DNA of 64,000 nucleotides from Siphlonurus alternatus (lineage: Eukaryota > Arthropoda > Insecta > Ephemeroptera > Siphlonuridae). The stretch is from NCBI GenBank assembly GCA_949825025.1, contig OX463778.1:11851671-11915670 (forward strand). Direction: 5' to 3'. The notes below the pieces were generated by a model. The model did not search any database. It was not told where the DNA came from and worked only from the letters and a program-made list of their open reading frames with translations. Every line of letters begins with the position of its first letter. Position 1 is the stretch's first letter. The position numbers and the translations under genes were made by a program. Shown piece after piece: positions 3,317 through 63,494 of this stretch.

Positions 3317-6300
3317 CTACATGTTCTCCTCTTGTAAGATCTCCACCAGCTTTGGGTCGTCAAACGAAGCAGTTGTGAATAACCAACCTGAAAATATAAT
3401 AAACAGCTTTGTTATATTTTGCAAATAGGATCAAATGTGCAGAATAGATCTTCCTTTTGCAGGTAAATAGGACTTAATGGGGGATCTTTTTAAAGAGTAT
3501 TCTCTTAACTCCTCCAATGAGATATTAGAATGTGAAAATTTTTGTGGCCTTATCGAAAGAAGGGGTAAAAATATGGTACTGTGAATTTTTTCAGATTTTT
3601 CTGAGACCGGGAACTATTTTAAAAAAATTATTGAAAGTCTATTTTATGATGTCACGGGCGGCACTGCCCTATCCTTTTTCTTAAGGAGTGCCGCCCGTGA
3701 CGTCATCAAAATATACTTTCAATAATTTTTTAAAAATAGTTCCCGTACTCAGAAAAATCTGAAAAAATGCACAGTACCATATTTTTACTCTTTCTTTCAA
3801 TTAAGCCACTAAAATTTTTACATTCTAATTTCTCATAGAATGTCATCTAGGAAATTATAAAAAGAGCTTCACAGTGATTTTAACATATTGTCGTGGTAGC
3901 ATCTAGTTTGCCCATCTCAACTTCGTAGATTTTACATAGATTGCCTATTTCATTTTTATATGTTACCTGAAAATGGATTGAGATTGGTAATGTAAGTAAA
4001 TTCTATTAAGGCGGGATTGACAAACGAGACGCTACCATGATATGTTACCGTAGTAAAAAACAGATTTATATTTGATTTTGATTTATAAAATTAGCATTGA
4101 AATTTTGGTGACTAAAATCTATAAAAATGATGAATACCCTATGAATGATGATATAACAAATACAAAAATATCATACTACTGCATAAGCTGTTATAAACAG
4201 CGGTGTCAACATTTTTCAAGACTGTAAAAACATATTTAGATTTAACTCTCACCCAGTATCCGGCTCTCTCCCAGGGGTGCATGCATGAGCAGGACGCAGC
4301 CAGCTACGTGCTGAACTCGCATGCCCGGGGAGCTGAGCCTGCGGGCGGCCTCCACCTGCGCTGCCGTCGAGGGACCTGGAGACACTCCGGAGACGGTTTC
4401 GCTGGATGGGAAGTCTGCCCAGAAACCTGCGACGCTCAGCTTGGAACACACTCGTCGTGCAGTCTCCTCAAACTGAAACAAAATGGCCGTCAGAAACACT
4501 CTCTGTGGCAATCTTATTTAGAAAAGTTAGGTAACTTTTATTAACAAACTTAATTTCTAAAAATGTACAGAAGATAAAATATAACATCTGCTATGAATTT
4601 TTAAAAGAAGCTCCACATAAGAAGATTTATAAGATAACTCTGCACATAAGTAATTATTTATTTAATTTTTCGGATTTTTACCTTTACCTTTTACTACCTT
4701 CGAAAAGTTAAAAAAACAATGCATTCAATATGAATACCGTTTGCACGAAAAAGTTATTTACTAATATAAGTAATTATAATGCGTCTGATGAAGAGAGATC
4801 TGTAATATCAATCATACAATTAAACTGTCAATCTTTAGATCCTGCTCTGGCTCATGCTAACGAAGGAAAGTTGACAAATTAAAATAAAGACTTTTCAAAG
4901 ATGACATGACAGCACGGAAGTGCTCAGTTATTAATGTGTCTTTAGTTACTTTGATATCTCACCATTGAAAGAAGTCGTTTTATGTCTTTCTCCATGTTCT
5001 TTGGTAAACAGCGAAGGGCCACACAGACTGCTGTGAGATGACCATGGCCAACGTTTGCTCGAGGAAAAAGATCTAGAACCTCTGAAAACAAAATCATGTT
5101 TACTATTCAGTAACAAACTCCATTTTATTCCAAATGTACAATCTAGGTTGTGCAGCTGCATGAAATTTTCTTTTATTTCAGAAATAAATAGAGGGTACCA
5201 AATTATGCTACTCTGAATTTTTTCAGATTTTTTTGAGACCTGGAACTATTTTTAAATAATTATTGAAAGTGTCCCCTGGAGGCGTTAATAGGCGTCTAGT
5301 CGCGTCTAGTCGCTTAAAGGGATACAGGCCTCAAATTACAAATTAGACAGACATTAAGTGTTGCTCGAGTTTATAATAAACATTCGTATTATTTTTACAT
5401 GCGCGCGGTGCGTCTGTGCGAAGTCGCGCTACAAAGAAAGTCCTTGCTGACGTCACAACTCACAGCTAGCACCGATTAGCATTGAGTTGTGACGTCATCA
5501 AGGACTTCATGACGTCATCAAGGACTAAATTTCTTACTTTGAACTGCGACTTCGCACGGATGCATCACGCGTGGAAAAAAATGATGCGAATGTTGATTAT
5601 ATACTCTAAACCCACTTGGCGACTGTCTGATTTGTAATTTGAGGCCTGTATTCCTTTAATGTCTCTATCTTTTTTATTAAGGAATCAGGGGTGCCAACTT
5701 AACTTACAGAACTTTCAATAATTTTTTAAAAATATATCTGGGACTAAAAAAAAAAAAATAATTAAAAAAATCTGAAAAAATTCAGAGTAGCATAATTTGG
5801 TACCCTCTATTCATTTCTACAGTACAAAATGTCATGCAGGTGTTCCAAATTAACTTACGGTCTCTTAACAAATAAGGACAGTCAACAGCCTGGCACCGGA
5901 ACGCCTGTGGTTCACTTGGCACAAATGATAGTTCTCCCGCTAACACAGCCAATTGAGTGACAATCTGAAATGAAAAGCACGGTCAGAACAAGATTAAGAC
6001 GTAATACGGAGGTCTATACGTTACCTCCATGTGTCGTATATAACTTGAATCAGGTAACGTTACATATTGTGGAGTTTTCTTGGGTCTAGGAACTTTCTTG
6101 AACATGCTTGATCTTTGCTTGCGTTGTGGAGAAAGCCCAACATTGCCAGGTAGACAGAAGCGGTAACCTCGCATGCCCAGCAACTCCCAGTTTGCATGTT
6201 CGTTCCATGGGGTCTCATCAGAAGCTGAACAAAGAGACACAATTAGTTTAATTTAAATCAACAAACTAATTTGAAAACTTCTGAACTACCTGTAAATCCA

Positions 6301-9300
6301 GCATTATCAGACAGTACAGTATATGTATATATCACAATAATGCTTACAATTACATTTTCCTGTCACTGTACCCCTGACAACACGAACTTTGCCCCTGCTT
6401 CGTTTGTTGATGCTGCGATTCAAAAATACAAAACATTGCAGATATTTAATTTAGGGAGAGGCAAGAAGAGCACCTAGTCTAGTCATATATCAATAATGTT
6501 CAAGTTTGCCACACCTTTTTAAACTGGGTGGCAACGCCCAGAAACAGAGCAGCAGGAGTAAAGTTTATGGTGTCCAAATATGTATATAAACAATGCACCG
6601 ATGACGGTGATGACTGTGTCTGATCAACCTTAATTTTGCTTTTACAGGAATCTGCTTCAGGATAATGAAATTTAATGAGCGCTGAGAGCCTGCTGTCAAA
6701 TATATACAATATCACAACTGATTTTATGCATAATGTACTGACTATTGATCATACTAGAGGTATCAGTGACCCCCGTGTTTTGTAAAAGAACTAACAACAT
6801 TTCAAAAGGTGTCATGTTTCTCGGGATGGTACTGTATGTATGATAATGTAGTAGCAATGTTGCACCAGTTGTGTGTATGCATACGTGTCTCTCGCTTACC
6901 GGTACCATCCCAAAAAAACATGGAATGGAACTTTCTGAAATTTTGATCAACCTTCTGGCCATGTTAGAGTATCGTCAGGGGTTTCCCAGGGCAGTGTCTT
7001 GGGTCCTTTATTATTTCTGATTTATATAGAGGATTTGCCAAGAGGAGTAAAGTCGAAGGTGAGACTGTTTGCAGATGACAGTGTTGTGTACAGGAAGGTG
7101 GAAAGTGAGGATGACGTTGTTGAATTTCAGCAGGATCTTGATATTTTGCAAGGGTGGGTTGATGATAATGGGATGAAGTTGAATGTGGCGAAGTGTTGTG
7201 TGGTTGTGTTTGGCAGGAAAAGGACAAGGAGGGTGTTGCAGTATATATTGGGGGGTGAAGTTTTGAAAGAAGTTGATAAGTACAAGTATTTGGGTGTGGT
7301 GTTGCACAGAAAATTGATGTGGAATGAACATATTAAGTATGTTACTTCTAAGAGTAGAAAGTTCTTGGAGTTTGTTATGAGAAATCTGAAGGGAGCTACT
7401 ATGTTCGTGAGAGATAGCACTTATAGAGCCATGGTGAGACCCATGCTTGAGTATGGATGCAGTGTTTGGGATCCATACAGGAGTGTTGGGGTGAAGGAGT
7501 TGGAGAAAGTTCAGAGAAGAGCAGCGAGAAGAGTTATGGGCGTATGGGACGATGAAAGTTGGTGGGAGATGGAAAGGAGGTCAGAAAAGAGTTTGAGAGT
7601 GTAACTGCGATGATTGAAAAGTTGGGGTGGGAGTTGCTGGAGGAGAGAAGGAGGGATTGTAGACTTTGTGTTATGTATAAAATAACAAGAAATAGTGAGG
7701 GTTGGAGGGAGTTGAGCTCTCGTATTAAGAGAGGTGTTTACATTGGAAGGAGTGATCACAGTTGGAAGTTGGATTTTGTCGGCAGTAGAAGTGATGTGGG
7801 AAAATATTCCTTCATTAACAGGACTGTAAGAGAGTGGAATTTGCTGAAGGCAGAAGTTGTTGAAGCAGAGAGTTATGAGTTGTTTAAGAGGGTTTTGAGA
7901 CAAGCAAACCCTTCGCGAGCCACCGTGGCGTAGCCACATTTGCAGCATTAATTTTATTATTATTATTTTATTTATATGAAACAGAGATCTGTGATGGTCT
8001 CTGCATAATTACAGTACGTATGAATATACAGTGTGCATAACATCATAAATCATTCCTCAGGCTTTGGATATTGCTTTGGTCCATTGAGAAAAAGTAGAGG
8101 TGTCCGTCCTGACTGAGGTTTTCCACGGTTCCCTCAGTCTCACCTCAGCGAATGCTGGGACGCGTAAGCATGCAGGCCGTGGCCACTATCCGTTCCCTAC
8201 CTTATCCCTACCCAGTACCCCGCCGCGAGCTGTAAGCTCTTAGGGGTGTATCCTTGTAAAAAAAAAAAATTATGCATAATATTGAAGTTCAACTTCAATC
8301 CTATTAAAGATTTAAAGATTAAAGATTAAATAGCAGTGTGTACACACATTACATACATACACCACTGCTTGCGGCTATTGTGGGTATTCCACCACGGTGG
8401 CTCGCTTGCTTGCGGCTGACTCTCTCAGCCCCTCCCTGAACTCACCAACACTCCGAGCATCCACAAGCCCAGAGTCCAACAAATTCCACTCCCTCACCGT
8501 TCTTCTCAAAAAAGAATACTTGCCCACATCATTTTTGCTTCTCCTATACTCCAGCTTCCAAGCATGGTCCCTCCTACCTTTATAACGCCCTTCCTCAGTA
8601 CGATCGCTAAGCTCCTCCCAGCCCTTTTGGTTCCTAGTTATTTTATACATTGCTGTCAGTCTACTTTGCTTCCTCCTTTCCTCCAGATCCTCCCATCCCA
8701 GTTGCTCTATCATTCTAGTCACACTCTCTCTTCCCTTATAAATTTTGTTTTTATCACAGGTAAAGCTCCAGTTCCCCTTTTCTAAAACCCTTCTTGCTGC
8801 TCGTCTTTGTATCTTTTCCATCTCTTTCTTCCCTTTTGCTCTATACGGGTCCCACGCATTACATCCATATTCCATTATTGGTCTAATCAGAGACTTGTAT
8901 GCTTTTTCTCTTACTGTCCTGCCTGCCCCCTTAAGATTCCTCATTACAAACTCAAGATTCCTTCTGCTCTTTGCGGTTACATACCTAATATGTTCATCCC
9001 AATTAAGTTTGCACTGAAGCATTACTCCCAGATATTTGTATTTGTCCTCTGATTTGATTTCTTCCCCCTCCATAAAATATTTAACCTGACTTTGCTCCCT
9101 TCTTTTGTTGAACTTAACCACACTACATTTTCCCACATTAAGCTTCATTTTATTAGCTTCTATCCATATACCCACTGTCTCCAGATCCTTTTGTAGAATT
9201 TGCTCATCCTGCTTATTACTTACTGTCCTATAGATTACGCTGTCATCAGCAAAAAGCCTCATCTCCTATTCTGTAATATTAAAATTATGCACTTACTTCA

Positions 9301-10577: not shown

Positions 10578-13500
10578 ATGCAGAAACGGGAAGGCCGAGA
10601 ACGTGAAAGAGAAAAAGATAGCAGTCGAGAAGAGGCTAATAAGCGGGTATCGCGAGCAAGCACGGGAGCTGCAGCAGTGACCGCGGGGGGTGCCGCAGCC
10701 CGCAGCAACATGCACAGCACCAGCCGTCATAGCGTGTCCAGTAGTTCGGGGGTACTTATGGTTGGCCCCAATTTTAGGGTAGGGAAGAAAATAGGATGTG
10801 GCAACTTCGGAGAACTAAGATTAGGTAAGATTAACATTTTTATATCAATGTTTTTTTGGTGCAACATAATGATGTTTCAGTGAAGCAGCTGACCCCCATG
10901 TTTCCCCTCACTTCCCCTCCATTCGTTTCTCTTGCAGAGTTTTTTTTATTATTATTATTTTTTATGTATCCGACACCGACAGGATGTATGTAATGTATTC
11001 GTGATATCATGCACAATTCCCTAAATATAATTTAGGATTAAAAAAATAAGAACCAGTTTGATTTTTCATACTGTATGTATTTTTTATCATTGCTTTCATA
11101 AAGGCTGGAAGAACCGAAGAACTGTGGAGATGCTTGAGCTGTCTGGGATCTTAATTATACATTATTAAAAGTTATAGGATACATACATACTCGCTTACCT
11201 ACTGTACAGAACTACAGTATGCATAAACTTATCTGTATTTAATTATTAATCATATCTCTTTAGGACGGCTATGGTGACAAAGAAATATAAAATATATATT
11301 ATGCATACCGGTATGCCGGTAGCAACGTTACCATCAGAAATTTTCTTTCTAAATTTAATATTGAATGAAATTTTATTGCGTTCTACAGCATTATTATTAT
11401 TTTTTATGTAGAGGTCAAGGTGGCTGGGTCAATGAAGACCGTGCTCTATTGACTTTATTTTATTTCCTCCATGTAATATATTGATCAAAGTTTATTTAAT
11501 AAATTTTTTGAAAATATGATTTTTTTTTTAAAATTTAAAATATTTTTGTGTTGTTTTACGATAGCATACCTACCGATTACATATATAATAACTAATAACA
11601 ATAAAACGTATGTACCGGTATGGACCATGGAATAAAGCTTAGTACAATATTTACTTTTCAGATTGTAGGATCGACCCGATCGACACTATAATACAGAAAT
11701 GGCGCTGTCAAGTTTTGAAAATTAAAGCGAAGAATCACCCAGTTTTTGTTAAAATATGTGTACTCATAATACAGTGAAAACATGGTCATTATTATTATTT
11801 TTTTGTATGTACTGTGTAATATTATCGGTATATTTTGTCTACCATACGAGAGGTCTCATGACATCATATGTGACTCAAACCCGCACAATAGACTGTGCTA
11901 GCAGCTCAATATTTTTAAACTACACTACATGCTACAGTAGTAAAATATCACATTGTATATCACATTGTTTGGCTTTATTAATACAAGGAAATGACTAAAC
12001 TGCTGATACCGGTACTTTTTTTATTAGGTTTGTTTATACACTCTGCACACTTCCTGCACTTTATTGACCTAAGTGCATAATAAGAATTTCTTGAGTGAAT
12101 AAAACATCTGCTTTTTTACGAACAGGCACAGTAGGTCTGTTCGTAAATACACAATCAGAAAGAATCGGTTTTTAATTGGTGAACCATCTTTACATGGAAC
12201 ATAAGTATCATCAATAATAATCGATTCTTGCTGATTGTGTATTTACGAACAGACCTAGTGATAATATGTACAGTACACTCAATTTAATTAAAAATGTCCG
12301 ATCCGGCTTTACCGGCATACCTTAACATGACGAAATCGCGGATATTTTTAATCCGGATTAATTGGAGTGTACACACTGTACACTGTTGGTACTTTTCAAG
12401 GGGAATAGAAACGGGATACAGTATTCACATTTTTCTTTCGACATGCTCCCGTAATTATTCATTCTACTGTAAGGTTTATAATGTTTATTAAATTATATTT
12501 TGTACAATCATTGTTATTGTATGTACAGTACAGTATTTTCAATTATATCTAATATCAATGTCTCCTTAATAGATATATTATGTATTTAATAGCTGCAAAT
12601 TTATTGAGGAATGAAGAAAAATAATTATAAAGTTTATTTTTTTGTTTCGGAAAGGTGAAAATGAGGCAGGTGCGACGGCAGGTGTAGTTTTATTATCACT
12701 CGTGCCTGTGAGAAGCTCTCACGCTACACCGTTACTTTAGTGACGTTCAGATGTCTCGATCATCTCCCAAATCGAGTTATGTTGTTAGCAAACGATAAAT
12801 TACCGCCGCGAAAGTCCAGCAGCTGGATTGCACATCCTCTCTCTGTTTATTCTTTGTCTACGTGCATGAATTTCTCAGACCCCATTTATATGTCGTCGTC
12901 TTGTATATTAGGATCTAGCTTTTCTAATTTATAAACAATTTTCAATACCACAGAATGACGTCTTTCAGTTTTCTCGGTTTGACTTAATTATAAAGTAAAC
13001 GTAACCTTCAAAACTTCGTCATTACATTTTATATACAACAGACCTTGCTGGCAACACGTCCGGGTACAATAGGTACCATACTTTTAGTCGCTACATGGCG
13101 CCCTCTTAATGGTTCTGGAAATTCCTATTTATCTTAGCATTATTTATGTAAGATACTTTCCTTATTCTTTCCATCACGTACTGAGTTATTTTTATGATCG
13201 ATGATAAATAATTTTAGTGGTGGTGCGACGTTCAAGATTTTGTCCCAGCACCATTACCTGGAAAATAGCTCCTACCAGATCTTATCATAGCGTCTGGAGA
13301 TAATACCTGTTGAAATAACAAACTTTTAAAACAATAAGGATTTATTTATTTTTCTGTCAACGCTAAATTGTTTTCCTTTTATTTAAAAATATGGTTATTG
13401 TACTAGTGGAAAGTACCTGCTGATTTGTTCTTTTTTTTTTAGTTTTATTGCCCACAAAGATTAGAATTAAGAATTAATCAAGTTGCCAGTGCAAGTGTGC

Positions 13501-17102: not shown

Positions 17103-20100
17103 AGTGATGAATCATACATTACATACACAGTATTTAACTATAATGTACATATACAGTATAGGTATATGAGCATACTGTACTGTATGGCAACGTTGAGCAT
17201 GGACTAGTACTCGAGTACTTGGATGGGTGACAGTTTCAAGTGAAAATTACTTTGCTCCCTCATCCCTCATGGGGTACGTAGTTAAATTAATTTTGTTTTC
17301 CACCCAGTGCAGCGAAATAATGCACTTAATTGTGTGTGGTTCCCCAGGCTTTGGACTTCACTAAAATGGTCCATTTATAAAAAAGTATATAAGAGCTAGG
17401 TGTCCGTTCTGACTGCATGCTGAAGTTTACCACAGTTCCCTCAGTCTCACCTCAGCGAATGCTGGGACGCGAAACAGAAATCGTGACCACGACCTAACAC
17501 ATTTTGTACTTTATTTATTAAAATTCTGATTAATCGCACTTTCATACCATTTAAATTTACAATATAAATTTTATATTTTTAACATTAAATGCATGAACAT
17601 TATCACACCATTACGGTGAGATCTAGTTTATAATAAATTAAACTTCAGTTTAACCTCTATTTACTGATGGAGGGTTAAAAACTTGCCGTAAAGTTAAACT
17701 CGTGTTATGAAATGTGTTGAATTTGATTAAATTCTGTTTGTGTAATAACTTCCATGAAATTAACAATTGTTATGCATTGTGGAACTGCACGCACGTTCCA
17801 TATGATATAAACATGCATCATCAGTGTCATCCATTAGTATGATGAACGGCTGTGGGCTAGTCCAACGTAAATGAGGCGTGACGTTTTTTACACAAACTTT
17901 GCTTGACATTTTACACTGCCAGAGTTTTTTTTTTTTTTTATATTGATGTTTGGAGATTGTGTGAAGCGGAGTTGACATTTTAGAGGATTGGTTCTTTTTT
18001 TTTTAACCTGATTTACTGACATGGATAATATTATAAATAAATAACATAGCTATATAAACATTAACAGAGACCCTACTATAATGGAGGCTTCAAGTCCGCT
18101 GATTTTTTTGGTATTCCCACCGTCCTATCTAAACCAATGTAAAAAAACAAATTGTTTTTTTGGCATAAAAGAAAATTTTTAGAGGAAAATAAGAAATTGA
18201 TTCATCATCAGAAGACCTCTAAATGAGGGGGGGGGATAGGAGATGTTTTCTTAAGGGCATTGGGTGTAGCACCGGTAGTTGGCAACACTGACGTATCTTC
18301 ACCATGTTAATTTTTTATCATTGCTCCTCGGAGTAATTTTTATGCTAGAGCCAAGCTGATTGCTGTAGTATCAAGATAATTAGTAGCCCAAGTGCACAAT
18401 TTGGCTAAATAAAGCCTGATTTAAAGAAAAGTATTTTTTAGTAATTTTTTAAATTTACATGCATTTTTCTAAAATATAAAAAAAATACTTTTCTTAAATT
18501 TAAATCAGGCTTTATTTAGCCAAATTGTGCACTTGGGCTACTAATTATCTTGATACTACAGCAATCAGCTTAGCTCTAGCATAAAAATTACTCCGAGGAG
18601 CAATGATCAAAAATTAACATGGTGAAGATACGTCAGTGTTGCCAACTACCGGTGCTACACACAATGCCCTTAATAGTTACTGCGAAAAAATTCAAATTTT
18701 CCAACATGGAGAAAATTTTCCCGCCGGGGAACACTTGAAGCCTCCATTGCAATTCATATTATTGCAGATATAGGTGCATTGACGGAATAACTCGTGCAAT
18801 TTATAAAACTGATTTCTTCATTGTAGAAGCTAGTCTTACCATGCAATCTTTGTTAGGTGCTATATAAATATTATCATACGGAAATAGGGAGCGATACAAT
18901 AAATGATCAACCTTCTTCCCTTCCCCTCGAATAGTTTTTTTAGACTATAAAGGTGTATTTTCATGGAGCGATGTCAAACGAGGCTTGGCGGGGCGAGAAA
19001 AGCGCACTTGCTTTAATCTCGTATGGCGGCCATGTTGGCGATAAAATCGCTCCCTGTAATGTGAGGTAATCCCGAGCCTTTGATTGGCTGCGACCCGTGA
19101 TTTTCTCGCTTTCCCGCTCAATGGAAATGCACCTTTATATTGTAATTTCTTTACAGAGTTTGTGAATTTCAGCAACAAGGTAGCGGCAACGTCGCAAAGT
19201 GAAATCACGTGTCTCTGTAATTGTATACAAATTGTAGCTGTTCAGTGTCTAACCGAATGTTTGTTTTGTTTTCAGGGAAAAATCTCTACAACAATGAACA
19301 TGTGGCGATAAAAATGGTAAGTACAATCGTCAGGTGCACGTAGGAGGGCTTGTTTCTCACCCTCCCTTTTGATAGGTTGTTTATCAAGTTTATCATGTCT
19401 AAGGTATTGGGGGAAGGGGGATTGTTGCTGAACCTTCTTCGGTAGACTGAAGACGGTCCAATTGGTTGTTTAATTGTTGCGTAAATTGACATGGGAGTAA
19501 AGAGATTCTCCTGCGAAAGTATCTCTCAGAAGTAAGCTCTCCAGGGGGCATTCACAGAAACCTCCACTTTAGCCTCGATTTTTATTTTGGGTTCTTAACG
19601 TAGTGCTCAACCAGGGCCCTAATATGGTTAGTCCCTGCATGACTTAGCACCCGGAATAAAAATCGAGGCCAAATGTGGGGGTTCTTCCGATTCAATGCTT
19701 TTTCAATGCCCCGCCCCCCCCACCCCCTAAAAACTAAAATCGGATAGTGGAGAGGTGCACAGAGGTTGCAACACGAGTTTTTTTCATAGGATTGCGATTA
19801 GTAAAATTATTAATTAAATTAAACTTTAAACTTAAATTTTTTATTTCCGTTTTAATAGTCAACTATTAACCATACTAAACTAAGTATTAAACATACTTAG
19901 ACTGTATGTTTTTTGTTTTTTTTTTTTCTGCGCTGGATTTCCTTATGTACAATATCGTAAGCCCTGCTCAGTGTACATACTTTCTGCACGCAATCGACCT
20001 TATGCACATAAGTTCGATTGGGTTGTCGAAAGTTTACACCAAGTAGGGTTTATAACGAACATACCTACTTGGTCGATTGAGTGCAGAAAGTGCATGGGTT

Positions 20101-29100: not shown

Positions 29101-32100
29101 TGACCTCTTTATGAATATTGAAAGAAATATGTCCTCTGAAATGAGGTTAATTATATTGCAACATTGCAAATATCATCCATTAGTTTATGCAGTTTATCAT
29201 TAGATAAAACTTTCAGTGTATAAAATACAAAATTTCGGAAGTATTATATTGCTATTATATCAATTAAAATTGTGGTTTATGAATAAATTATAATATCTAA
29301 TCATTGAAAAGTGTATAGCTTGGCACAAAAGCTAATAGAAGTCGAGAAAATTAAATTTGCTTATCAGTTAATATAGTCTATAAGAGTTTTGTTTGATGAT
29401 AGGAGTATGCTATTTCTAGGCTATTTTATTATGACTTGGCAATTATTATTTTTTTTAATTTGGAATTTGAACTATGAGCTGAATGAAATATATTATAAAT
29501 TTTCACTGATTTCATATTTAAAGCTACCGGTGCATCTGGGAGGTGGTTGGTTGATGCATAGCCCTCTGTTGGCCACCAGAGGGCTATGGTTTATGGCATC
29601 CTCCATTAAGGGGGGGGGGTAGACTCAAACAAGACGTTTTGATAGTGTTCGTATATCGTCCCTCGTCCGCAATAATGAGCTATCTGCCTACCATGATATA
29701 GTTGCAATAATGAGCTGTCTGCATTTTCAGGTGGGCGCAACAATGAGCTTTATTTTATATCAATTTATAGCTCATAATTGCGCTCACCTGAAATAGCAGA
29801 CAGCTCATTGCAACGAAACCATGGTAGGCAGATAGCTCATTATTGCGGACGAGGGACGATATTTCAATTTTTTTCTTATAACGTTTTCACCTGATCGTTT
29901 TGAAACCATCTGCATACCGCACTATATTATTAGCCGTAGTCTTTGTTATTAGCCATCTACTGTAAAAATCCGATTGAATTATAAACTTAAGTTTCTGAGA
30001 TATACTGTCCAGAACAACTCTGGAATTTAAGTACAAAAATTGTTCAAAAGATGGCGCTTCAGAAATTTGTTGACAGTTTTTCTGGGTTATAATTGAATGA
30101 AACTTACTAATTCTTTTTACATTGCTTAACGGCTCTTATATTATACTCTAGGACCTCAGATAGTTTCATAATAATTACAGCAAAACAAAGGAAATAATTA
30201 TTTACTTCCTAGACAATTCCAATAGATGGCACTTTCAGCCTCCCGCCCACCGTTAACTGTCGTCGACCATATTGATGGAGGTTTCCATGGTTCCCTCAGT
30301 CACAAGAATATATTGATACAGGACATGGTTTGAAAGCCACAAAATCCTAAGCAATGCTAGGTCGTGTCCTTAAAGAGCCTGAAAGTTGCGACCACAGTAC
30401 CGTAACCACAGTTGAGGTAAAAATAAAAATAATATTGGAATGATATTTGTTGTAGGCCGACGAGAATGCTTGGTATTTCCTTGCAGTACTTGAGTATGAC
30501 TCACCCCCCGCGAACCACGTGGTACGTCACGTGCGGCGGCGCAAACGTGCCTATATAAACCCTCGCAGGCTTCTCAGCTGGGGAGTCTAATATACAAGGC
30601 TGCTGCAATGCAAGCTGCTGCTAACCTTGCGAGACGAACGTAGAGACAAAATAGAATTAAAACGTAGAAAATATCCTTAAAAAGACACAGGGGGTATCTT
30701 AAAATAAAACAACGTTATTTTTATGAATTTATCACTGCAAATGGGTAAAACGAGTATACTGTCGGTTTCAAAAAGGTATATCCCTGAATAGCATACAAGT
30801 TAAATATCTGGAAGAGAGGTACACCTTTTTAGTTCTGATAGGAAACACTGGAAAAAAAAATATTGCTAAATTTGTTCCATTAGGTCTGCTTGCTGTATTG
30901 ATGTCAAATATGTCTTATTTTTTAACGTCGTGTAAAATACTCGATATAACTTTAATAAAATAATGTTTGTGATAAAATTACGTTCTCGCTTATAGCATGG
31001 TTGGTAAATATTGTGATTTTCCTATAATATAAGCTGCAATCCCCGGTATAGACGTGGGCTGTTGACTTTGGTATAATATATAAAAATATTTCAGTGTAAA
31101 ATCCCATGCAGTTTGCGTGGGCTGAGCTTAACCCGCCACAACACATTAGATCATAATTTATAATTATATACTCTCAAGTTTGTTGCACTGGTTGCATTGA
31201 CTTGCAGCATAATCATTGGTAGCGTTTATATTACCGATCAAGTTGATAGCAAATTATTTTTTTATCGATATCAAGACATTTATATCGGCAAAAGATGAGA
31301 AAATTGACATCTACAATATAGACGTTAGAATATATTTTTTGAAGAAGAAGCGATTTGTCTTATAATATCAAATTTTCAATCGTGAAAAACAAGGTTTTTA
31401 GATTGTGTAATAATTTAGTTAGTCTGTCTGAAAGAGAATAATATGCCAATGTGCCGTGACGAACGTGTAGTTGAATTATAATACGATCAATAAGTACAAG
31501 GTCTTATCAAAATATCAAAGTACTGCAAAATGTAGTAGAGAAAACATTTACGTCTTTGTTTAAAATATTATTTAAATATTCTCCACGAAGTGCCGCTTTT
31601 TATATATTTTTCACATCGAAGAGTTTTTAACAAATTTGATTTTTTTACTGCTCACTGAATCATCCACAATATTAGATATAAACAAGTTACATAAAGTGGT
31701 TTATGGCTGGATGTCTTTCATCAAAAACATCACATAGTTTACACAGAAGAACTCCTCCTTGTTGAAAAGTAGCACGTCGTTCATTCGTCAATCGATACTG
31801 TGAAAATAATTTTTTTATTTGGTTCCCTTGACATATGTTCACAACATCTTCATTATTTTCTGATGAAAGTGTATGTGTTTTTATGTCTCTATCTCACAAT
31901 AGTTATAACGTCAGAGGTCGTACAATATAATTTAATTCAAGCTCAAAGTATAGGAGCGCTATATATGACACGTTTCACCGCCGGACATACGCCCCCTCTC
32001 CTACCGCCTCACCCCTTCTATATATTGATTATGGGTTCACACACTTCTTACAGGCATGCAGGGCAACCCACTCGTGCTAAGCTATAGACGGAGTTACTTT

Positions 32101-56800: not shown

Positions 56801-59480
56801 CGTGTGCGAGCGAGACTCCAGTCCTCCGTGTCGACAGCTCGACGTCGTTTTCTTGAGCGTCGCCTCCTTGGAGAGTTGGCGGAGCTGCTACGAGTGCCGG
56901 GCCAGCAGCGGGCTGTGGGAAGCACCGAGACTCAAGGACGACAGTCGGGCTCACAGGAGTGGCGGCTGCAGAGGTGAGCAACAGTAGCCAACATGAGGAG
57001 GTTGGTGTATTATTTATATCTTGGGGTTCCTTTGTTTACCATGTCATGAATTTTAAAATATCATGGTGTTAGTTTTATGACTTTTTATGTTACCATGATT
57101 ATAATTGACTATGATTGAATGCTATATGCATGTAAAAAGTCATAGAAACTATAAATTATAGTCGAGATTTGTTTTTCGAGCTTTCAAAATTAATTAATGT
57201 AGTAATTCTTTTTACTGATGCTGCATATAAAAAAAAAGTATACTGACTCTGAAATTAGCCATTTGTCAATATACTCCCCCCACTCCTTTTTATAAAATTT
57301 AATTTTGGCAACTGGAAAGTATCCCAAATCAAGACATCTATTTGTTCGCTACATGAGGCTTGTTTGTATTAACCCTGAAGTGAGTGGGTTTCCTGCACAG
57401 CATTTCCTGATCAGGTGGAAACTGGACAACTTTGAAAGTATTCCAATGTTCTCCAGGCGCGAGACGGGCGAGCTGAGCCCGGGGTGGGTGTGGCGGCCGA
57501 ACCCCGAGGAGCTGCGAGCCGGCACGATGGAGGTGGGCTTGTCAGTCGCACAGAACACCTACCAGCGAGGCAAGGGCGAGACAATGCAGGGCTGGTCCCG
57601 CGGAGTCTTTCGAGCGAGCAACGTGGCACGCAAGGAGGAACGTGACTGGAACAAGGCATACTTGGCAAGAACAGGTGAGAGCTGTAGAAGAGTTAGTACT
57701 GTATAATGAAAATTGAGTTTGAGTGTCTTAAGTTCACTTAATCGGTGTGTTGCAGAGGGCAGCAGTGATGCTGGGTGGGTGGAGTGGAAGTTCGAGGCGG
57801 GTGCTGGTACAGAAGTGGGTCAGGTTACCCTACACCTCGGCTGTGCAACCTACGGTTCAGGAAAGGTGCAGTGGCTCCTCTTGGGGGAGCAACCTGCGAT
57901 CACAATCACCATACCCTCGGGTAAGTGGGAATATCTCAGACTTGATACATTAAGACAGAATTCCACCATGATCTCAGACATATTGCTAACAGTGAAGTAT
58001 ATATTTTTTTAAAAGTATTCACATTTATTATAATCTATGTAAGGAGTCATTGTAGAAGTATCAGTATAGCCAATAGACTTCTTATGATGAGCAGCATATG
58101 TGGTTCATTGGGCTATGATAAATCTTTCCATGGAAAATAATACAGTTGCACCCTAAGTTTTTTTGCCATCACCGTTGTTTAACCATACAATATTAGTTTT
58201 CAATCATATCCATTTCTAAGGATTTGAAAGTCTTCAATACCATGGTACTAGCTGTATATTTTTCTACTTTTATTTTTCTCTCCCTCTCTCTCTTTTAAGA
58301 CTCAAAACAAATTAATTAAAATTTATACATAAAAAAATTCTTATCTTATAAGATATCTTATCTTACAATTGTATTAAATTAATGCTTTTAGGTGAGTTTT
58401 CAAGGGGTCGATTGTTGATTTTTTACATCAGCTTTCGTGTTCCACCTTGGCGACACAGTATAAAATAGCGATATTCAGTTCCATAGCAGCATTCACTCTT
58501 ATATCCATAGATCCGACTTTCGCCTTTTCCAAGGCTCATCAGTATGGCTCGTAAGAGGCTGCTACTGACTGCCGAAGCAGTCAGTTCGCAACTGATGAAA
58601 GACGGGAGAGAGCCCCGGCTTTTATTGCCAGCTTGCTTCCCCCACCTCTCACCATGACGTCACTCTGCTTCCCCATTGGTCGTGTTACCAACGGCTTCTA
58701 GAACTTTAAAAAAGTTACTAGAGAGGTCGTGGCACAGACCAACAGAGTAGCAAAGCAGACATTATACTGCATGGATCTAAATATCACTATGAGTGAACGT
58801 TTTTGTATTCACTCATTAATTTATACTGTGTTTACTGACCACGTTGTCAGTTTTTTGGAGGTTGTGTGCTCACGTTAGCACCACGAATTTAAACCATAAA
58901 AGTTCTAGAAGCCGTTGGTAACACGACCAATGGGTAAGCAGAGTGACGTCATGGTGAGAGGTGGGGGAAGCAAGCTGGCAATAAAAGCCGGGGCTCTCTC
59001 CCGTCTCTCATCAGTTGCGAACTGACTGCTTCGGCAGTCAGTAGCAGCCTCTTACGAGCCATACTGATGAGCCTTGGAAAAGGCGAAACTCGGGTCTATG
59101 GATATATTATAAGAGTGAATGCTGCTATGGAACTGAATATCGCTATTTTATACTGTGGCACCAAGGTGTATTAAATTAATCAAACATACCAGCACTGCTT
59201 TTAATCTTAGAAATAGAAACAAAATAAATGGGGGAATTTCTCTTGAGGTGACAACTATGTAATATTTTTTGACCATAGTACAATTTTTGTGACTGTTTCA
59301 GGCCAAGAGTCATTCTCGAGCGAAGCCCTGCAGGGCTGCCACACTGTGACGCTGCGAGCAGAGCTGAGTGGGGGTGACGGGGATGTGGCCTGGCAGCACA
59401 CCCAGCTGGCCCGCCAGGATCTCCCGGACCCCACCTTCCCTATCCAGGTCTTCCTCAGTCTGAGGCCTTGCACGAAATGA
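53878..59480 (+). CDS. NGLY1: NGLY1 peptide:N-glycanase, complete
   Basis: Exons 53878-54096, 54159-54314, 54661-55392, 56789-56973, 57457-57674, 57756-57920 and 59302-59480 (stop TGA 59478-59480); 1854 nt, 617 aa (human 654), all phases agree. Domains in order: PUB (about 1-75, ECLFEMGFEE), Lys/Pro-rich linker, transglutaminase-like core with GRCGEWANCF (nucleophile Cys), DHVWTEVWS (His) and WLHCDSCEAICD (Asp), then the C-terminal PAW sugar-binding domain with WKFEAG and GGDGDVAWQHTQLARQ. The enzyme removes N-glycans from misfolded glycoproteins retrotranslocated to the cytosol; PUB binds p97/VCP in the family. Zinc site: first pair CHLC is intact, but the second pair reads CSNGH instead of CxxC. 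ATG 53878 lies two bases after a splice-acceptor-like TTTCACAG, so a 5' UTR intron (53763-53875) is likely. Confidence 0.93.
55829..56234. repeat. Approximately 200-bp tandem duplication with (CT)n
   Basis: ATCTTCTGTAGACATGCAGC to GTTAAAAATGTAAA occurs twice, period 200 bp at the left edge and 203 at the right because the second (CT)n run is longer. Very few other differences. In NGLY1 intron 3. Confidence 0.9.
56415..56754. mobile_element. MITE family A, copy 4, next to an NGLY1 splice site
   Basis: GGACAACCTACATGAAATTT start and AAAATTTTTTCATGCAGATT then GTCC end; arms carry AATAGAGGGTACCAAATT. The right end is 34 bp from NGLY1 exon 4 (56789). Confidence 0.85.
58496..58557 (-). ncRNA. Hammerhead ribozyme, inverted partner copy, stem III altered
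   Basis: Read on the minus strand: CTCTTA, CGAG, CCATA, CTGATGA, GCC TTGGAAAA GGC, GAAA, then GTCGGATC and TATGG ATA TAAGAG. Core boxes are kept, but the stem III C-G pair is replaced by G and A, leaving triplet ATC; activity is probably reduced or lost. Confidence 0.8.
59049..59115 (+). ncRNA. Hammerhead ribozyme, type I, intact core
   Basis: Stem I is CCATA (59059-59063) with TATGG (59097-59101), extended past an internal loop by CTCTTA (59049-59054) with TAAGAG (59110-59115). Core CTGATGA is 59064-59070; stem II GCC/GGC closes the loop TTGGAAAA; GAAA is 59085-59088; stem III is A-U plus C-G closing a TCGG tetraloop; the cleavage triplet GTC is 59094-59096, so cleavage is expected after C59096. 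Every conserved core position is present. It is in sense with the NGLY1 pre-mRNA, about 205 bases before its last exon. Confidence 0.9.
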
Positions 59481-59499: not shown

Positions 59500-59712
59500 A
59501 TATTGTCCCTCGTCTGGAATAATGAGCTATCTACCTACCATGATCACATTGCAGTATGAGCTGTCTATTAATTTAGATAGCACAATTATAAGCTTCATTT
59601 TATACTGATTTACAGCTCATAATTGTGATCATCTGAAAAAGCACATATAGCTCATTATTGCAATGAAATCGTGGTAAGCAGATAACTCATTATTCCGAAC
59701 GAGGGACGATAT
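59500..59712. mobile_element. MITE family B, copy 3
   Basis: ATATTGTCCCTCGTCTGGAA and its partner CGAACGAGGGACGATAT, with AATGAGCTATCT-type internal repeats. It starts 20 bp after the NGLY1 stop, so it is probably transcribed in the 3' UTR. Confidence 0.8.
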
Positions 59713-62125: not shown

Positions 62126-62397
62126 TGTCTTAAACATATGTAATCAACTATAACAAATATTTAAAAAAACATGTAGGTGCAATAAACATTTCAACATCAA
62201 ATTTAAATGTACACAATTTTTTTTTATACATTAATTTAATTATTGAACCTATAGGTTATGCAAACATTTGACATATCAAACACACCCTGTTTTGATTCTA
62301 AATATACAGGCATATTTCGTATTGAGCCGTCATAATATTATATTATAATGTACACATTTGGACAACAAAAACTTTACTGATACATAAGCTCTGTTTG

Positions 62398-62508
62398 TAA
62401 ATACACAATCAGAAAGATGCAATTTTTATTGATGAACCTTATGTTCCATGTGCATAAGGTTCATCTTTAAAAATTGATTCTCTCTGATTGTGTATTTACG
62501 AACAGAGC
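62398..62508. mobile_element. MITE family C, copy 3
   Basis: GCTCTGTTTGTAAATACACA and TGTGTATTTACGAACAGAGC between TA flanks; 111 bp. Confidence 0.8.
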
Positions 62509-63494
62509 TATAGACCGAGTGATCTTACCAAGCGGAGGTAAAGTTTATGTTGTCCTGCAGTGTGCATGTACCAGTTATAGAAAATAATGGAAAATTTATT
62601 TTAGGGAAAAGGACTAGTAAACAAACTTCTTTCGTTGTGTCCTTAGTTTTGGCATCCATCTGGTTACCTTGCCTTCCCTTATTCTAGCAAAAGCAGTAAA
62701 TTATTTAAAACAGTATAAACAATACAATTAATAGTAAAATTATGATACACCCTATATAGATACAACTATTTTTTAAAATATACAATAAAATCGTCACAGC
62801 CATAAATTTTATTTATAATTAGACACAAATGAACTACAAAACCCATCATAGGACTTGGAAATGAGTTGCAGGCGTCACAAAGAGTGTAATGTACGTAGTT
62901 TATGAACTTAAAATGTGAAAATTTTATGCAGGGTATATTTTAAGTTCTTGCCGTTAATTACTAAAATAATTTTATCCCCCCAGCCCCCCACACGAATGTT
63001 TAAAGTGTTAAAATTTATGTACTGTATGTATTGTAATGCTTTTACTACAATAATATCTCCTTTGAAAATTAGAAAATAACTAGCAACAGTTTGAACTTAA
63101 AAAACACCCTATTGTCAAAATAAAACTGACGCTTAATACTTGACAGTAGCATCCATTTGGTTGGCACAGTGGAATGTTCAAATGGAACTAGTACAAGCAT
63201 TCATCTGATTGATAGGCTCCTAGAAAACATTAATTCAATTGAACTAGGGGCCAAAAATTGAGTGGGTCAATTAGTCTCCAGCAGGCTGGATTGATTCTTA
63301 CACTTACTATTAAGTAAGGCCTATCAATTTCTCAATATACTCTGAACTTTATAAACTTTAAAACATAATAACATGCAATTGACCACAGTACATCTTATTT
63401 TTCATCCTAGCACTCCCTAATGCTCCTTCTGTACAGTTTCCATTTCCCTTTGCTTGTTTCTTCTACAGTGAAACAAATGTTGGTTGCGTAGATC

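Follow-up and report, generated by a model that had tools for sequence, protein, structure and literature searches.

The last intron of NGLY1, in the 64,000-nucleotide stretch of DNA analysed here (the window), carries a hammerhead ribozyme motif on the sense strand, which raises the question of whether the motif serves the gene or arrived there with something else. The domains found, PUB and a transglutaminase core, and a match in the PDB to peptide N-glycanase bear out the earlier note's naming of the host gene as NGLY1. The PAW domain falls in two stretches. Measured against the Pfam cut-off of 31.4 bits, the first (57713-58009) falls short with 25.9 bits and the second (59301-59477) clears it with 42.9. 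The second stretch (GQESFSSEALQG...RPCTK) is followed by the stop codon at 59480 and ends NGLY1, so that roughly 200 nt separate the ribozyme, which is in sense, from the last exon downstream of it, close to the 205 bases given previously.

The hammerhead motif

The motif at 59059-59101 on the plus strand is a real hammerhead motif, with every conserved position present: the conserved core CUGANGA, GAAA and UH is found with its three helices. CUGAUGA occupies 59064-59070 and GAAA 59085-59088. The inner part of stem I has 5 bp (CCAUA 59059-59063 with UAUGG 59097-59101), and beyond its internal loop two additional helices can be read, CUCUUA 59049-59054 with UAAGAG 59110-59115 and, outermost, AGCAGC 59043-59048 with GCUGCU 59121-59126. 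Stem II consists of five pairs (GCCUU 59071-59075 with AAGGC 59080-59084) closed by a GGAA loop, not the three pairs of the earlier note, and stem III of 2 bp (A59088-U59095 and C59089-G59094) under a UCGG loop at 59090-59093. The last base of the GUC is 59096, which sets the expected cleavage. The remainder of the earlier description agrees with this reading: a complete hammerhead, sense to NGLY1 in its last intron, with a five-pair stem I and a further helix past an internal loop (we read two), a minimal stem III with a TCGG tetraloop and a cut after 59096.

We accept the motif as real on the strength of descriptor statistics and sequence context. A strict two-strand descriptor (CUGANGA, a stem II of at least 3 pairs, GAAA, A-U plus one more pair of stem III, UH, and a stem I of at least 4 pairs) gave a single match on both strands of the window, namely this hammerhead; it caught neither the copy in the left arm described below nor any other hammerhead in the window. 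Random sequence gave 2 matches in 200 first-order Markov windows of equal length, or about 0.01 per window, and one of these two had a stem II of at least 4 or a stem I of at least 5 pairs. A loose, pairing-free pattern was discarded as not significant (26 overlapping matches for 12.1 expected, with 26 reached in 7 of 100 shuffles). The covariance-model hit by which the motif was to be checked did not appear: Rfam at gathering scores returned no match in the whole window, and with E up to 10 no hammerhead match came close to its cut-off. RF00008, aligned in the wrong register, reached 24.4 of the 48.5 bits required (E of 0.87 for the window), the RAGATH-1-hammerhead model 19.2 of 56.3 bits at the right-arm hammerhead, and the Hammerhead_HH9 model 18.2 of 52 bits on the minus strand of the left arm, HH9 and HH10 being names of amniote intronic hammerheads. 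The 67-nt stretch of the motif folds somewhat better than its shuffles (z of -2.2, 2 of 200 as good), into a predicted fold that is not a hammerhead. Viral contigs scanned for two ribozyme patterns and prokaryote genomes scanned for one exact stretch of 25 ribozyme bases gave no matches, which says little because those collections are not animal; an 18-base promoter stretch had one viral-contig match, which extends to 20 bases only and was taken as chance.

An insert of two inverted arms

The motif lies in the right arm of an insert whose two ends are both touched by an exact 14-bp direct repeat at an AT-rich site (Table 1). Among the 20-base flanks of 5000 random 783-nt intervals none matched over 14 bases, the maximum being 12, and 26 reached 8. 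Because the TG that opens the right repeat also extends the left-arm match, the right boundary can be placed only to within two bases, and the tail, sharing these two bases with the right duplication, is 59-61 nt long. Aligned over 58443-58707 and 58899-59168, the arms are identical at 259 of 265 aligned bases, with 6 substitutions and one 5-nt gap, which suggests an insert of fairly recent date. Four of the six substitutions lie, with the gap, within 59089-59160; two of the six hit both bases of the second pair of stem III (C-G in the right arm, G.A in the left). The left arm carries a second hammerhead, inverted and 0.5 kb upstream of the right-arm one, in which the core is kept, the second stem III pair is G.A, not C-G, and the internal loop is 5 nt shorter. 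The outer ends are unequal, the left being longer by 61 nt; they lie 70 nt past the ribozyme cut in the right arm and 126 nt past it in the left.

Table 1. Positions of the insert, its parts and the neighbouring exon within the window.
Feature	Position	Strand	Particulars	Basis
Whole insert	58384-59166	.	783 bp, two inverted arms and spacer	Repeat searches, arm alignment
Target-site duplication, left copy	58370-58383	.	14 bp, TGTATTAAATTAAT	Repeat search
Target-site duplication, right copy	59167-59180	.	14 bp, TGTATTAAATTAAT	Repeat search
Left-arm extension (tail)	58384-58444	-	61 nt, 42/61 bases A or C	
Left arm, inverted pseudo-LTR	58445-58707	-	58384-58707 including tail	Repeat search, alignment
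Left-arm hammerhead core	58496-58557	-	Expected cut 58510/58509	Sequence read
Left-arm promoter-like motifs	58655-58662, 58619-58626, 58590-58595	-	Same order as in right arm	Motif match
Spacer	58708-58898	.	191 nt, single-copy	Repeat search
Right arm, pseudo-LTR	58899-59166	+		Repeat search, alignment
Right-arm promoter-like motifs	58944-59016	+	TGACGTCA 58944-58951, AATAAAAG 58980-58987, TCAGTT 59011-59016	
Hairpin directly ahead of ribozyme	59021-59042	+	22 nt, ACTGACTGC TTCG GCAGTCAGT	Repeat search
Minimal type I hammerhead with extended stem I	59043-59126	+	Core 59059-59101; expected cut 59096/59097	Sequence read
NGLY1 last exon	59302-59480	+	PAW end, stop at 59480; outside insert	Start taken from AG before 59302

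CRE-, TATA- and initiator-like motifs, recognized by motif match only, precede the ribozyme in each arm. Both arms share the order TGACGTCA, AATAAAAG, TCAGTT, CTGATGAG, with TCAGTT 23 nt beyond AATAAAAG and followed by the 22-nt hairpin and then the ribozyme. This order predicts transcription outward from either arm, that of the right arm running toward the last exon of NGLY1; a sigma-70 and terminator scan is not meaningful for an animal promoter. No open reading frame of at least 90 aa overlaps the insert, no reverse transcriptase or GIY-YIG endonuclease frame was found in 58384-59166, and Pfam was silent on three insert peptides. A conserved frame from the ATG within CUGAUGA stays open for 33 codons to the right-arm end; we do not claim it because in the left arm it closes after 38 codons, shifted past the 5-nt gap, and because it has no Pfam match. 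A 56-codon open frame in the spacer was set aside, also without a Pfam match.

The window holds no other copy of the insert: matches to the arms or spacer are at most 30 nt, and the sole long partner of either arm is the inverted one. The spacer contains a 10-pair hairpin at 58789-58816. Against a cut-off of 80, the plant MIR396 model of Rfam gave 58677-58929 scores of 33.6 bits on one strand and 32.4 on the other, which most likely reflect the inverted-arm hairpin itself and no microRNA.

Repeats of other kinds were seen elsewhere in the window. A near-perfect palindromic element at 18251-18673, a MITE-like long hairpin, has 175-nt arms that are 98% complementary with 73 nt between them. Palindromic elements with arms of 64-129 nt cluster at 1836-2131, 3517-3836 and 5171-5827, and some cross-match (3715-3785 with 5200-5270). 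Inverted-repeat elements at 59500-59712, starting 20 nt past the NGLY1 stop codon, and at 29653-29862 have the common ends ATATYGTCCCTCGTC ... ACGAGGGACGATAT and probably form one MITE-like family; the short palindromes at 12129-12260 and 62387-62509, which have GTAAATACACAATCAGAAAGA in common, are perhaps another. Opposed reverse-transcriptase fragments, LINE-like by eye, lie at 6999-7604 (+) and 8375-9262 (-), with RVT_1 scores of 40.3 and 22.7 bits for a Pfam cut-off of 29.6.

How the insert may have arisen

We consider it likely that the insert, which lies at an AT-rich site of the last NGLY1 intron, is a short non-coding Penelope-like (PLE-type) retrotransposon insertion, an origin well supported by anatomy and not by sequence homology. 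The inverted arms, the exact 14-bp repeat at the ends, the unequal outer ends, the shared motif order and the published anatomy of Penelope all point to it. The insert has a pseudo-LTR (pLTR) with a minimal hammerhead and promoter motifs (a promoter by motif only), inverted pLTRs, the optional tail and an AT-rich target-site duplication, the tail being 61 nt compared with a published 30-40 and the duplication 14 bp compared with 8-10. It does not encode the telomerase-like reverse transcriptase with GIY-YIG endonuclease of a PLE, and because this frame is absent we class it only as a non-coding insertion of PLE type and do not count it among PLEs proper. Besides the missing frame and the long tail, two further points speak against a PLE-type origin: similarity to the one PLE RNA that was aligned locally (PAc, 361 nt) is at chance level, with 74 of 500 shuffles as good, and this origin does not account for the spacer. 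The insert is placed in no named PLE family.

On this PLE-type origin the insert would be composed of two head-to-head pLTR copies, each with promoter-like motifs, the minimal type I hammerhead and the start of the downstream region. An endonuclease would have made a staggered cut in both target strands, and element RNA would have been reverse-transcribed from each cut end at two different internal start sites, one of which would yield the 61-nt tail. The cDNAs would have run through ribozyme and promoter, been truncated and then been joined mid-insert. Priming from both cut ends could thus produce the duplication, the outward ends and the truncated 5' ends meeting in the middle. This two-strand priming step, taken alone, we put forward tentatively, as a serious possibility that falls somewhat short of probable; priming from both cut ends, one per internal site, is not stated in those parts of the PLE literature that we drew on. 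The insert was probably mobilised in trans, or else truncated. By analogy with other elements, the ordinary place of the ribozyme would be the element RNA made from the arm's own promoter, which it could trim, and in NGLY1 pre-mRNA it would probably be inactive through pairing of the inverted arms and be removed with the intron. A more far-reaching version holds that this was one PLE integration with both strands primed at different internal sites, that inverted pLTR pairs are the normal two-strand product and that the antisense arm silences the ribozyme. We regard that version as doubtful; if true, head-to-head insertion would be a built-in harmlessness in introns for ribozyme-carrying elements.

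The main rival for the origin of the inverted form overlaps with this explanation: a PLE-type insert whose inverted copy came from self-priming or template jumping, not from two-strand priming. Self-priming has been proposed for inverted repeats with palindromic junctions in rotifer Penelope (PMC3846280), and the arms here are nearly identical; however, the junction is not palindromic and holds a 191-nt spacer instead, both outer ends join target DNA, and the crowding of four of the six substitutions and the gap within 59089-59160 may mean two templates. Such a course seems to us unlikely, though not so much so as to be set aside.

We judge it very unlikely that the insert is a foldback or MITE-type DNA transposon in whose inverted repeats a hammerhead-like motif occurs by chance. 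The window is indeed rich in inverted repeats, 25 being listed of 27 (at least 45 nt, within 1.5 kb): of those listed, two belong to this insert, 10 consist of A-run pairs and the remaining 13 include several that are MITE-like. The outer ends of the insert are nevertheless unequal by 61 nt, yet the direct repeat touches both, and the 14-bp duplication is longer than usual for DNA transposons, whose target duplications are usually 2-10 bp. Moreover, promoter motifs, minimal hammerhead and tail follow the order of the PLE layout, and the strict descriptor found no other hammerhead in the window.

The proposal that the hammerhead is a functional intronic ribozyme, cutting NGLY1 pre-mRNA and tuning the splicing of its last exon as suggested for amniotes, draws on its sense orientation about 200 nt upstream of that exon, on its complete core and two-pair stem III on the sense strand, and on precedents in introns of RECK, CTCL and DTNB (PMC6155905). 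The same transcript, however, would contain the antisense left arm. In equilibrium, thermodynamic predictions, whose energy models ignore tertiary contacts, ribozyme stems I, II and III had a probability of 0.0 in all four modelled two-arm transcripts, where 89-90% of the bases of 59053-59115 pair with the left arm. At 7 of 8 modelled polymerase positions (58950 through 59116), 95.6-98.5% of the right-arm bases already transcribed are predicted to pair with the left arm (36.2% at position 58920), and the whole insert folds at -579.8 kcal/mol compared with a mean of -221.5 for 20 shuffles. Even without the left arm, forcing the hammerhead on 59043-59132 costs 6.2 kcal/mol relative to the best fold, and in four one-arm stretches CUGA pairs with UCGG (probability 0.84-0.94), which is not a hammerhead. 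The few differences between the arms, with the fairly recent insertion that they suggest, also tell against a functional role. The earlier idea of intron cleavage competing with splicing is accordingly weak, since a long hairpin of the two arms, without a hammerhead, is predicted for the pre-mRNA; cutting of the NGLY1 intron by the ribozyme is unlikely on these models, and a regulatory ribozyme at this site appears highly improbable. The release of a small circular RNA, also raised in the earlier note, found no backing: a two-cut circle from one transcript is not suggested because the window contains no second direct-orientation copy.

The alternative fold of the single arm fits the cleavage of PAc RNA only with protein (PMC11167929) and the dimers of hammerheads with a short helix III (PMC7229834). 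In stem III, ACUCGGGU of the right arm can self-pair at all 8 positions (two being G-U) and AGUCGGAU of the left at 6 of 8; when two copies were cofolded the best fold was not a hammerhead dimer, and dimer activity of the ribozyme would be a possibility only.

A metazoan retrozyme, that is, non-autonomous tandem repeats with type I hammerheads and circular RNA, is likewise a highly improbable reading: a retrozyme would fit a type I hammerhead and arms that are small (about 270-320 nt) and non-coding, but the arms are inverted with no direct tandem hammerhead unit in the window, stem III is minimal and the right-arm G+C of 49% exceeds the <45% of a figure legend and lies just below the <50% of the text (PMC7229834).

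The PLE-type insert is a known kind of thing, minimal hammerheads in Penelope-like elements being known already. The PLE literature considered here does not settle either the role of these hammerheads or the origin of inverted pLTR pairs, and the locus is usable as a natural record of PLE integration because its ends are clean, with an exact 14-bp duplication and two different outer points. It also carries a warning: repeat context should be checked before a sense intronic ribozyme motif is read as gene regulation.

Comparison with known systems

Hammerheads were reportedly described in PLEs in 2014, and small hammerheads are said to have been reported in 2017 to act as dimers. In amphibians, hammerheads whose helix III is short perform better as dimers (PMC7229834), and PLE hammerheads are usually minimal, without helix III (PMC6155905), in keeping with the earlier remark that a minimal stem III is typical of Penelope-like elements; the one found here is of the kind reported for them (PMC6155905, PMC7229834). 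Metazoan retrozymes share with the insert the type I hammerhead and the nature of a small non-coding retroelement, but are direct tandem repeats with canonical hammerheads (PMC7229834), whereas here the pair is inverted and stem III minimal. The amniote intronic hammerheads are likewise type I and lie inside introns of protein-coding genes; they are conserved across species (PMC6155905), in contrast to this mobile insertion with its inverted twin.

Another parallel is PAc (Poseidon, from Anolis carolinensis), whose purified protein acts at AT-rich sites, where both strands of the DNA are cut and extended by it (PMC11167929). Its reverse transcription begins at two adjacent internal start sites, mostly at an AC-rich stem loop, and the tail is the sequence between the sites (PMC11167929). 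By our own count from that paper, 82-89 nt separate the ribozyme cut from the most-used site downstream of it (PMC11167929), compared with outer ends at 70 and 126 nt here. PAc and the insert have in common a minimal hammerhead overlapping an ORF start and, on the origin proposed here, reverse transcription that begins internally, past the cut, and the cutting of both strands; they differ in that there is no significant sequence similarity, that the PAc ATG overlaps another part of the core and that the PAc ORF is intact, unlike that of the insert (PMC11167929). PAc RNA was cleaved only when protein was added, whereas a PLE hammerhead had earlier, as told in the same paper, been seen to self-cleave at 3-25 mM Mg2+ (PMC11167929). 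Ribozyme mutants of PAc inserted unchanged in vitro, with no reads beginning or ending at the cut (PMC11167929), which tells against a need for the ribozyme, although it may have a role in mobilisation.

There is also a likeness in overall form to Penelope of the rotifer Adineta vaga. The best-described copies there hold an ORF for reverse transcriptase and endonuclease, which this insert lacks, and the term hammerhead is absent from that paper (PMC3846280). The rotifer tail, optional and at one inverted pLTR, is 31 bp and the duplications are 8-10 bp (for example GAATTAAT; some copies have none), compared with 61 nt and 14 bp in this insert (PMC3846280). The rotifer pLTRs have TATA and initiator motifs, an inverted pLTR stands beside a direct one, and head-to-head is the commonest inverted form (PMC3846280); a curation guide likewise gives inverted pLTRs and short 3' extensions as peculiarities of PLEs (PMC8969392). 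With rotifer copies such as Pen2a_Av the insert has in common inverted head-to-head pLTRs, TATA and initiator motifs, a one-sided optional tail and a short AT-rich target-site duplication, and Adineta vaga also has pLTR pairs around unrelated sequence, a further likeness to this insert (PMC3846280).
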